A stretch of 64,000 bases of DNA from Lentilactobacillus senioris DSM 24302 = JCM 17472 (lineage in GTDB: Bacteria > Bacillota > Bacilli > Lactobacillales > Lactobacillaceae): assembly GCF_001436555.1 (NCBI RefSeq), contig NZ_AYZR01000004.1, positions 310,001 through 374,000 on the forward strand, read 5' to 3'. Both the position numbers and the translations under genes were made by a program. Below, in pieces: positions 21,133-22,897 of the stretch (positions are counted from its first letter, which is position 1; every line of letters starts with the position of its first letter). The notes beneath the pieces were generated by a model that did no database searches, was not told where the DNA came from, and was given only the letters and a program-made list of their open reading frames with translations.

Positions 21133-21200
21133 GCTTGCTAAACTAATTAGTTTCAGCTACAATCAAACTAAATTAAGGAAAGAAGTGAACGAGTTGAAGA

Positions 21201-21260
21201 ATGCAAACCGTTAAGAAAATGAATATTAATCTTAGTCGAAAAGACTGGGGTTATTTCTAA
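21201..21260 (+). CDS. possible leader peptide of the ABC-F gene
   Basis: MQTVKKMNINLSRKDWGYF is encoded between the AlkD gene and the ABC-F gene, before a strong terminator. The start region (21202-21213) can pair with the bases just after the stop (21258-21269), 12 positions with one mismatch, and the last codons can pair with bases beyond the terminator. The ribosome-binding site is weak; a GTG at 21185 behind AAGGAAAG would read a different short frame. Leader peptides of this kind are known for ABC-F resistance genes. Confidence 0.4.
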   Translation: MQTVKKMNINLSRKDWGYF

Positions 21261-21288
21261 CGATTTGCAAACTTAATTCGGCTAAACG

Positions 21289-21316
21289 AAAAAAGGCGCA
21301 AAGGCGCCTTTTTTTG
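21289..21316 (+). terminator. terminator in the ABC-F leader, candidate attenuator
   Basis: AAAAGGCGC and GCGCCTTTT flank a four-base loop, followed by more Ts. It is the only terminator between the AlkD gene and the ABC-F start, so it both ends the upstream operon and can attenuate the downstream gene. Confidence 0.85.
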
Positions 21317-21339
21317 TGTCTTAAAACCAGCAATCTGCT

Positions 21340-21355
21340 GAAATAACCCTCAGTC
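21340..21355 (+). promoter_or_regulatory. sequence complementary to the end of the leader ORF
   Basis: GAAATAACCCTCAGTC pairs with GACTGGGGTTATTTC (21243-21257) over 15 base pairs with one bulged T. The pairing would loop out the terminator and bring the leader ORF next to the ABC-F ribosome-binding site (AGGGGG, about 21369). Confidence 0.6.
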
Positions 21356-21382
21356 CACTAAAATATTAGGGGGTCGATTTAC

Positions 21383-22897
21383 ATGGGTATGATTAAAATT
21401 ACCGACGTGAACTTTCAATATGATGGGGCAGTGGATCCCGTCTTTACTAACTTAAATATCAACATTGATGAAAAATGGAAATTAGGACTAATTGGCCGGA
21501 ACGGTCGTGGAAAAACTACTCTGCTTAAAATTTTATTAGGGCAATTGAAGTACCAGGGAACGGTCCAAACCAACTTAACTTTTCGTTACTTTCCACAGCC
21601 AGTCAGTGATCCCAGTTTGGAGACTAGTGAAGTGGTTTTGCAGCAGGCCCAGTTAGATGATACTGAAATTTGGCGTGTTCAAGCAGAATTGCCAACTCTT
21701 CAACTGAGCGATGATGTTTTGTGGCGGCCGTTTAACACCCTTAGTCCGGGCGAACAAACCAAGGTGCAGTTAGCGGCCTTATTTTGTCAGCCCCAAAGTT
21801 TTCAGTTGATTGACGAACCTACCAATCATTTAGACCAAGCTGGTCGCCAAGTAGTAGCAGATTACCTGAAAGGCAAACAAGGTTTTATCGTGGTAAGCCA
21901 TGATCGCCAGTTTATTAACCAAATTATTGACCATGTCTTAGCAATTGAACGGCAACAGGTGCAACTCCTAAATGGAAATTACGATACTTGGCAAGCCAGC
22001 TTTGACCAACAAAATCAATTTGAGGCTAAAGGACAGGCTAAGTTACAACACGAAATTAAGCAGCTAAAGGCTAGTGCTACGCAAACTAAACGGTGGGCTG
22101 GTAAAGCTGAAGGGCAAAAACAACAGAAAAATCCAAAGGAACAACACGCTAATTTAGATAAAGGCTTTTTAGGCCATAAGGCGGCCAAAATTATGAAACG
22201 GTCCAAGGCTGCAGCTGATAAGGCTGAACGAGCGGTTTCCGAAAAACGCAAACTACTAAAAAACGTCGACGAAGTGTCGACGTTAACAATGGATTATCAG
22301 CCGGTAAGAATTAACCAACCGTTATTAACGGTGACTGATCTCCAAGTGAAGTATACGGATGATTGGTTAGCTCAACCGGTTAGTTTTCAAATTAACAAGG
22401 GTGAACGATTATTTTTAACCGGTAACAATGGTACCGGCAAATCATCCATCCTAACCGCGTTACAATTTCGGGACCAAATTGAGCACCGTGGAGCAATTAC
22501 TTGGGCCAGTCAGGTTCGCGTTTCGTTTTTGGAACAAACCTTTACCGAACTCCGGGGATCGCTGACTAATTATGCTAAGCAGCACCATTTGCAGGTGGAG
22601 CAGTTCTTTAATTTACTCCGGAAATTAGGTTTTGAACGAGCTAGTTTTCAAACGCCGCTAGAAAAAATGAGCATGGGCCAACAACGCAAAATCGGGTTGG
22701 CCAGATCGTTAGGTGAACCTGCTAACCTCTACGTTTGGGACGAACCCTTAAATTATTTGGACCTCTTAACCCGCCAGCAAATTGAAGAGGTAATCCTAGC
22801 GTCTCAAGCGACTATGTTGATTATCGATCACGACGTTGATTTTATGGAACGGGTGGCTACTCAACCAGCGGTAGCGGTAACTTCACTAGCAAATTAA
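21383..22897 (+). CDS. ABC-F ATPase, Lsa-type ribosomal protection family
   Basis: The 504-residue protein has two ABC domains without membrane segments, joined by a charged helical linker (about residues 215-295). Walker A motifs are GRNGRGKTT and GNNGTGKSS, signatures LSPGEQTK and MSMGQQRK, and Walker B regions LIDEPTNHLD and VWDEPLNYLD. The first 180 residues and the linker follow Lsa(A) of Enterococcus closely (WKLGLIGRNGRGKTTLL, VLWRPFNTLSPGEQTK). Lsa-type proteins dislodge lincosamides, pleuromutilins or streptogramin A from the ribosome. Whether this one confers resistance cannot be judged. The 250-base leader with uORF and terminator suggests drug-inducible control. The ATG at 21383 is correctly spaced from AGGGGG. 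Confidence 0.88.
   Translation: MGMIKITDVNFQYDGAVDPVFTNLNINIDEKWKLGLIGRNGRGKTTLLKILLGQLKYQGTVQTNLTFRYFPQPVSDPSLETSEVVLQQAQLDDTEIWRVQAELPTLQLSDDVLWRPFNTLSPGEQTKVQLAALFCQPQSFQLIDEPTNHLDQAGRQVVADYLKGKQGFIVVSHDRQFINQIIDHVLAIERQQVQLLNGNYDTWQASFDQQNQFEAKGQAKLQHEIKQLKASATQTKRWAGKAEGQKQQKNPKEQHANLDKGFLGHKAAKIMKRSKAAADKAERAVSEKRKLLKNVDEVSTLTMDYQPVRINQPLLTVTDLQVKYTDDWLAQPVSFQINKGERLFLTGNNGTGKSSILTALQFRDQIEHRGAITWASQVRVSFLEQTFTELRGSLTNYAKQHHLQVEQFFNLLRKLGFERASFQTPLEKMSMGQQRKIGLARSLGEPANLYVWDEPLNYLDLLTRQQIEEVILASQATMLIIDHDVDFMERVATQPAVAVTSLAN

Follow-up and report, generated by a model that had tools for sequence, protein, structure and literature searches.

A putative two-tier attenuator with a UUG-started mini-uORF and a co-evolving long-range helix before an Lsa-like ABC-F gene

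The stretch of DNA analysed here (the window, 64,000 nucleotides) contains an Lsa-like ABC-F ribosomal protection gene of 504 amino acids at 21383–22897, on the plus strand like every feature described below. We propose, with a probability of about three in four, that its leader senses ribosomes and acts as a vmlR-type attenuator in two tiers. In the absence of drug, ribosomes would clear a UUG-started mini-uORF, the long SL-1 hairpin would form and most transcripts would end at the terminator. In the transcripts that read through, the segment 21346–21351 would cover the Shine–Dalgarno (SD) sequence of the ABC-F gene. A lincosamide, pleuromutilin or streptogramin A would stall the ribosome at the UUG, and SL-1 could then not form. 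The freed 3′ part of SL-1 would first compete with the terminator through a UUUGC/GCAAA, UUCG/CGAA antiterminator. Once RNA polymerase is past the terminator, 21243–21257 would pair with 21340–21355; this long-range pairing would strip the covering segment off the SD and open translation. We computed the conservation of the uORF, the predicted SL-1 of relatives, the co-evolution of the long-range helix and its overlap with the predicted SD-covering segment. Ribosome stalling, the inducing drugs, the control of termination and any change in protein output are inferred. The initial annotation of this DNA had likewise proposed attenuation that depends on a uORF ahead of the Lsa-like gene, with the uORF hairpin pairing to post-terminator sequence, and this pairing is kept in relatives.

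Gene, leader fold and terminator

The gene was assigned from NCBIfam models and a match to the Lsa(A) structure. The protein scores 435 bits against the generic ribosomal protection-like ABC-F model NF000355 (cut-off 380). Against the Lsa model NF000167 it scores 599.5 bits and does not reach the curated cut-off of 750; it is therefore called Lsa-like and not filed as Lsa. Lsa(A) (7nhk) is the only solved structure that it matches at E up to 1e-60. It is 93% identical to the ortholog of L. senioris YQ005. Rfam release 15 gave no match in the window; a search with the leader at E up to 5 returned 15 Rfam matches, every one below its gathering score.

Leaders were collected from 24 genomes of the genus, three of which (G002, G012 and G020) gave weak matches only and no ortholog leader. 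The main pairing tests used 25 leaders. L017 stood outside them, as no terminator was assignable, and L062 was not included. Also unused were L002 (leader deleted), L031 (the L. senioris locus again, in a second collection) and L025–L027. The last three belong to a second ABC-F gene family, 34–36% identical, which is found in three genus genomes and does not have the uORF pattern. A wider set of 45 loci (L063–L107) contained five repeats of earlier ones (L064, L065, L066, L070 and L073). The remaining 40 yielded 36 leaders; L081, L083, L094 and L101 gave no GLIGRNG match. Of these 36 leaders, 29 entered the wider pairing test, which left out L067, L069, L077 (a repeat of L048), L082, L084, L088 and L092. 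L082, from the same genome as L062, was read but kept outside the pairing tests.

Folding of 21181–21390 gave −66.5 kcal/mol (z −6.2; none of 200 shuffles folded as well). A hairpin that folds up the uORF, SL-1 (21190–21280), is predicted both for the window and for relatives. Its stems include 21227–21237 with 21243–21253, and 21202–21213 (TGCAAACCGTTA) with 21258–21269; the latter strands are reverse complements with one mismatch, as initially described. A uORF inside a 5′ hairpin, with an SD near the 5′ end, is the vmlR-type arrangement, and the relatives show SL-1-like folds as well. By analogy, SL-1 may serve as an anti-antiterminator. RNAalifold on a MAFFT alignment of the leaders recovered a consensus of only 11 pairs, a poor result that probably reflects apical loops of unequal length. 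An RNA model (R1) built on this consensus is weak, and its matches in at least 17 of 301 family genomes and at least 6 of 395 order genomes are therefore lower bounds.

Between uORF and gene, again as in vmlR-type leaders, the window has an intrinsic terminator, a predicted hairpin at 21286–21317 followed by a U tract. It comprises 14 predicted pairs, with a core of GGCGC/GCGCC plus A/U pairs, and corresponds to the terminator initially placed at 21289–21316. A simple terminator scan of the region did not list this hairpin; the extension of its stem by A/U pairs is the probable reason. For each leader the terminator position was set manually, from predictions or by eye. Hairpins of −10 kcal/mol or better are present in 23 of the 25 leaders.

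In the ribosome-masked, incomplete transcript a candidate antiterminator (21264–21302) is predicted. It consists of UUUGC 21264–21268 with GCAAA 21298–21302, CUU 21272–21274 with AAG 21293–21295, and UUCG 21277–21280 with CGAA 21287–21290. Before the 3′ arm of the terminator is made, masking of the uORF increases the pairing of the 5′ arm with upstream sequence from 0.37 to 0.54. Leader by leader, this upstream pairing goes up by more than 0.2 in 12 of 25 and down in 2. The antiterminator strands did not reach significance when swapped between leaders (z −1.4, p 0.08). Once its 3′ arm is included, the terminator is predicted at 0.94 whether or not the ribosome is present, so read-through does not emerge from equilibrium folding. 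Given this value and the swap result, it is the analogy with vmlR that makes antitermination in the window leader likely.

The long-range helix and the Shine–Dalgarno sequence of the ABC-F gene

The initial annotation noticed that the 3′ half of the SL-1 apical stem (21243–21257) can pair with 21340–21355, beyond the terminator. We find the same 15 pairs with one bulged base at the same positions. The two helices cross in their coordinates and could coexist only as a pseudoknot, as was also pointed out. Judged by sequence comparison, no other part of the leader structure has as much support as the long-range helix, and the suspicion that it deserved a look was justified. In the window the duplex has an energy of −22.7 kcal/mol. 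Dinucleotide shuffling of the 3′ segment gave −11.3 on average, and none of the 2000 shuffles matched the native value. In all of the 25 leaders but L048, the duplex between the apical and 3′ part of SL-1 and the post-terminator segment reaches −14.9 kcal/mol or better (24 of 25). For 21 of the 25, the leader's own pairing is better than its dinucleotide shuffles at p < 0.05; L017, tested separately, gave p 0.02.

When strands were swapped between the 25 leaders, cognate duplexes averaged −20.4 and swapped ones −15.4 (z −7.7, 0 of 20000 permutations). The 29 wider leaders gave z −6.6, with z −3.3 for the 16 leaders of other families and z −4.7 for the 13 of the own family; single-leader dinucleotide-shuffle tests in this set were weak, with z below −2 in 9 of 29. 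Phylogeny is not modelled in the swap tests. Partners swapped between related leaders resemble each other more, however, and this works against a positive result. Five close relatives (L009, L010, L013, L014 and L028) share a six-pair helix, picked by eye, in which three pairs are changed on both sides (GTTCAG/CTGAAC, GTTCGG/CCGAAC, GTTCAA/TTGAAC and GCTTAG/CTGAGC). A sixth, L015, pairs differently. The conservation check proposed with the initial annotation was run, and both the helix and the uORF are kept in relatives.

The 3′ strand of the helix (21340–21355) overlaps the segment that is predicted to sequester the ABC-F SD. The best anti-SD match before the start codon is AGGGGGT at 21368–21374. 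In the minimum free energy structure of the window, 21346–21351 pairs with 21369–21374 and forms a putative sequestering hairpin after the terminator (SL-4, 21346–21374). In read-through RNA with the uORF unmasked, SL-1 stands and the post-terminator segment pairs with the SD, with a mean of 4.2 expected pairs. Hardly any of the long-range helix is then predicted (0.24 pairs; L007 alone has some). With the uORF masked, as by a ribosome at its start, the average number of long-range pairs rises from 0.24 to 8.8. Of the 25 leaders, 19 exceed 3, and the other six (L005, L012, L015, L044, L048 and L060) stay at or below 1.6. At the same time the SD pairs with the post-terminator segment fall from 4.2 to 2.7. 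Prediction and co-evolution both point to a read-through pairing in competition with SD sequestration, as proposed for vmlR.

The predicted effect on the SD itself is smaller in the full RNA than in a local fragment. In the full read-through RNA, uORF masking changes SD accessibility from 0.30 to 0.37 (up by more than 0.05 in 12 of 25 leaders, down in 1). In the local fragment, blocking of the long-range segment raises it from 0.33 to 0.56 on average. The gain exceeds 0.1 in 20 of 25 leaders, and no leader falls by more than 0.1 (two fall slightly). Blocking other segments of equal length gave a mean of 0.45; the long-range segment did better (p 0.0005, 24 leaders; 13 up and 1 down when compared leader by leader). 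Compared with shuffled segments, the native segment leaves the SD less accessible in 20 of 25 leaders (p 0.02). For the window alone, the gain from blocking is small (0.19 to 0.32), and its SD sequestration is no stronger than with shuffled sequence (0.19 vs 0.21).

Natural dissociations of these elements point both ways. L048 has neither the long-range helix nor the SD pairing with the segment. L047 and L063, from one other genus, keep the uORF and the long-range helix and have no clear intrinsic terminator. These three leaders fit a model in which the helix frees the SD. L046, which has the helix and no predicted SD pairing with the segment, does not. Its fold would suit an alternative in which transcription attenuation alone matters and the helix is a by-product, a spacer or a stabiliser of read-through RNA, that does not act on the SD. 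The near-general presence of terminator hairpins in the leaders speaks for the same alternative, as does the vmlR leader, in which inducible expression suffered only moderately when SL-4 was disrupted (PMC9226507, accessible text). We nevertheless consider it unlikely. It is the long-range helix that co-evolves best, and significance was not reached for the antiterminator; from its position past the U tract, the helix should have no say in termination; and it overlaps the SD-covering segment, whose pairing with the SD is missing from L048 along with the helix.

The probable sensor uORF

The sensor of the proposed attenuator appears to be a UUG-started uORF, MKNANR-stop, at 21194–21214. Its SD, AAGAAGTGA (21180–21188), aligns with AAGGATGTG or AAGGAAGTG before the uORF of relatives, and the GTG within it is invariant among 19 aligned leaders. 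In the genus such an SD is followed mostly by TTG AAR NNN NNN AAT CGT TAA. The pattern occurs in every genus ortholog but that of L. senioris (20 of 21; shuffles would give 0.12). The search patterns were drawn up after reading these leaders, and the genus pattern demands TTG. We therefore used other start codons as a control on the wider leaders. Among the 36 wider Lactobacillales leaders, an SD with TTGA[AG] is present in 31, compared with an average of 4.6 and a maximum of 9 in shuffles, and ATGA[AG], GTGA[AG] and CTGA[AG] in 1, 1 and 0.

The peptide fits MKX[A/V/T]NR in 22 of the 26 leaders listed. Its stop varies, from the three codons of L047 (MKM) and L060 (MKL) to MKFTNRLSEF in L019, and leaders of other families have three-codon uORFs such as MKN. 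What the leaders have in common is the start, the SD and a second codon that is mostly basic (Asn in L107). This would be expected of drugs that halt the ribosome at initiation or immediately afterwards. Such stopping has been reported for vmlR (PMC9226507) and for are5sc (PMC12421871) in the text accessible for these papers.

A second TTG lies seven bases on from the first in 15 of 20 genus leaders, at the place (21201) where the window has ATG. Comparison favours 21194 as the exact start; a start at the second position is a lesser possibility, and in the wider leaders only the first TTG is kept. The GTG at 21185 was rejected as a start codon. Its distance to the invariant TTG shifts between leaders, often out of frame.

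The ATG at 21201 opens the 19-codon ORF MQTVKKMNINLSRKDWGYF (21201–21260) that the initial annotation took for the sensor, with a ribosome stalled near its end controlling both pairings. The ORF is indeed open in the window, and its start coincides with the common second TTG; it is probably not functional, and as the sensor it is most improbable. ATG is found at this place in only 2 of 20 genus leaders, the window included. The length of the frame that follows ranges from one codon to more than 20, and its sequence also differs between leaders; outside the window the peptide sequence is shared only with the nearest relative, L021, where the frame is interrupted. With neither start nor frame conserved, the 19-codon uORF was rejected as sensor. 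A ribosome near its end would, moreover, be expected to cover 21243–21257 and so block the long-range helix rather than favour it.

Fused layout, known systems and the L. senioris locus

The 36 wider leaders include a second layout. Of these, 21 were folded, and 16 entered the swap test for it. In this fused layout the strand with the uORF SD and the bases around the UUG pairs with sequence just before the U tract, and sensor hairpin and terminator are one structure. It is present in L087 of the own family and in 15 of the 16 tested leaders of other families (among L089–L107). Of the 16, 14 come from f3, at a guess Enterococcaceae, and one each from f2 and f9. In L103–L105 the UUG itself is partly in an internal loop of the fused structure, and in L098 the chosen tract cuts the structure short. 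Cognate fused terminators averaged −22.7 and swapped ones −17.9 (z −5.1, 0 of 20000). A ribosome at the UUG would be expected to block such a terminator directly.

We lean slightly towards the view that a single, ancient class of leader precedes the Lsa-like ABC-F genes throughout Lactobacillales, marked by a UUG mini-uORF and by a co-evolving helix that spans the terminator and frees the SD. This class would exist in a split layout, with separate sensor hairpin and terminator (the window and Lentilactobacillus), and in the fused layout (other families and L087). In the latter the uORF SD and start region would form the 5′ strand of the terminator, and a start-codon ribosome would block it without need of an antiterminator. 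The fused layout was not found in the accessible text of open-access papers on such leaders.

The comparisons that follow refer to the accessible text of the papers cited. The closest parallel is vmlR of Bacillus subtilis (PMC9226507), which has a uORF in a 5′ anti-antiterminator hairpin, an intrinsic terminator and an ABC-F protein for PLSA drugs. It also has an SD-sequestering hairpin after the terminator and a proposed read-through pairing that disrupts this hairpin. The long-range pairing, which the initial annotation did not recognise as a known design, had thus already been proposed. The two leaders differ in the uORF, AUG-started MIN in vmlR and UUG-started MKNANR here, and in the evidence for the pairing, a drawn model there and co-evolution across many species here. 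The cplR leader of Clostridioides difficile (PMC10201436) likewise has a short uORF (MRI) in a 5′ hairpin, an intrinsic terminator and control of SD access, but its terminator stem itself sequesters the SD, whereas here a separate post-terminator segment is predicted to do so. For lsa(A) of Enterococcus faecalis, which encodes the closest solved protein, a short uORF is reported (PMC10201436), and its consensus MAGN does not match MKX[A/V/T]NR. The uORF here thus differs from those reported for VmlR (MIN), VmlR2 (MK[L/Q]), CplR (MR[I/M]) and LsaA (MAGN), although the shortest ones of relatives (MKL, MKM) come close to that of VmlR2.

A UUG-started short uORF, MLV, precedes are5sc of Streptomyces (PMC12421871), and LSAP antibiotics stop ribosomes at its start codon in toeprints. 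Unlike the gene studied here, are5sc is an actinobacterial ARE5 gene; its uORF RBS overlaps the antiterminator hairpin, and the description in the accessible text includes no post-terminator long-range pairing. A further paper (PMC8632094) mentions UUG starts and uORFs; the terms ABC-F, Lactobacill- and Enterococc- are absent from its main text as accessible.

The two-tier logic had already been proposed for vmlR, and UUG-started uORFs before ABC-F genes are known from Streptomyces are5sc. New here are the UUG mini-uORF of this leader, the co-evolution of the helix, and related leaders in which the terminator stem is made from the ribosome-binding strand of the uORF. The co-evolution gives comparative support to the step drawn in the vmlR paper, in which a leader strand reaches past the terminator to open the SD. 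The suggested UUG start of the sensing ORF means that a search limited to AUG would miss such uORFs. Natural variants, some without a clear terminator and one without the helix, offer a way to separate transcriptional from translational control of an intrinsic resistance gene in lactic acid bacteria.

The locus of L. senioris (L002, and equally L031) has neither promoter nor uORF nor SL-1. The last 106 nucleotides of the leader are kept there and differ from the window at 1 of 106 sites, compared with 49 of 178 four-fold sites in the ABC-F gene. The sensor half may have been lost recently, or else the 3′ half may be useful in itself. In the window a promoter-like site, TTGCTA-17-TACAAT (21135–21163), matches the consensus at 9 of 12 positions; the consensus scan of the region found 4 such sites, with 3.5 expected by chance. 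The loss in L. senioris and this chance-level promoter count would suit a reading in which the main role of 21286–21317 is to terminate transcripts of the upstream GNAT and DNA-alkylation-repair genes, the leader being a remnant that is decaying or constitutive; we give it very little credence, as the window leader is intact with all its elements, its 3′ half is far better kept than the four-fold sites of the gene, and nearly all genus orthologs retain the uORF. In three genus genomes (G003, G013 and G011) the ABC-F orthologs (L007, L020/L028 and L021) have an in-frame stop or lie in separate search pieces, and their leaders are still present.
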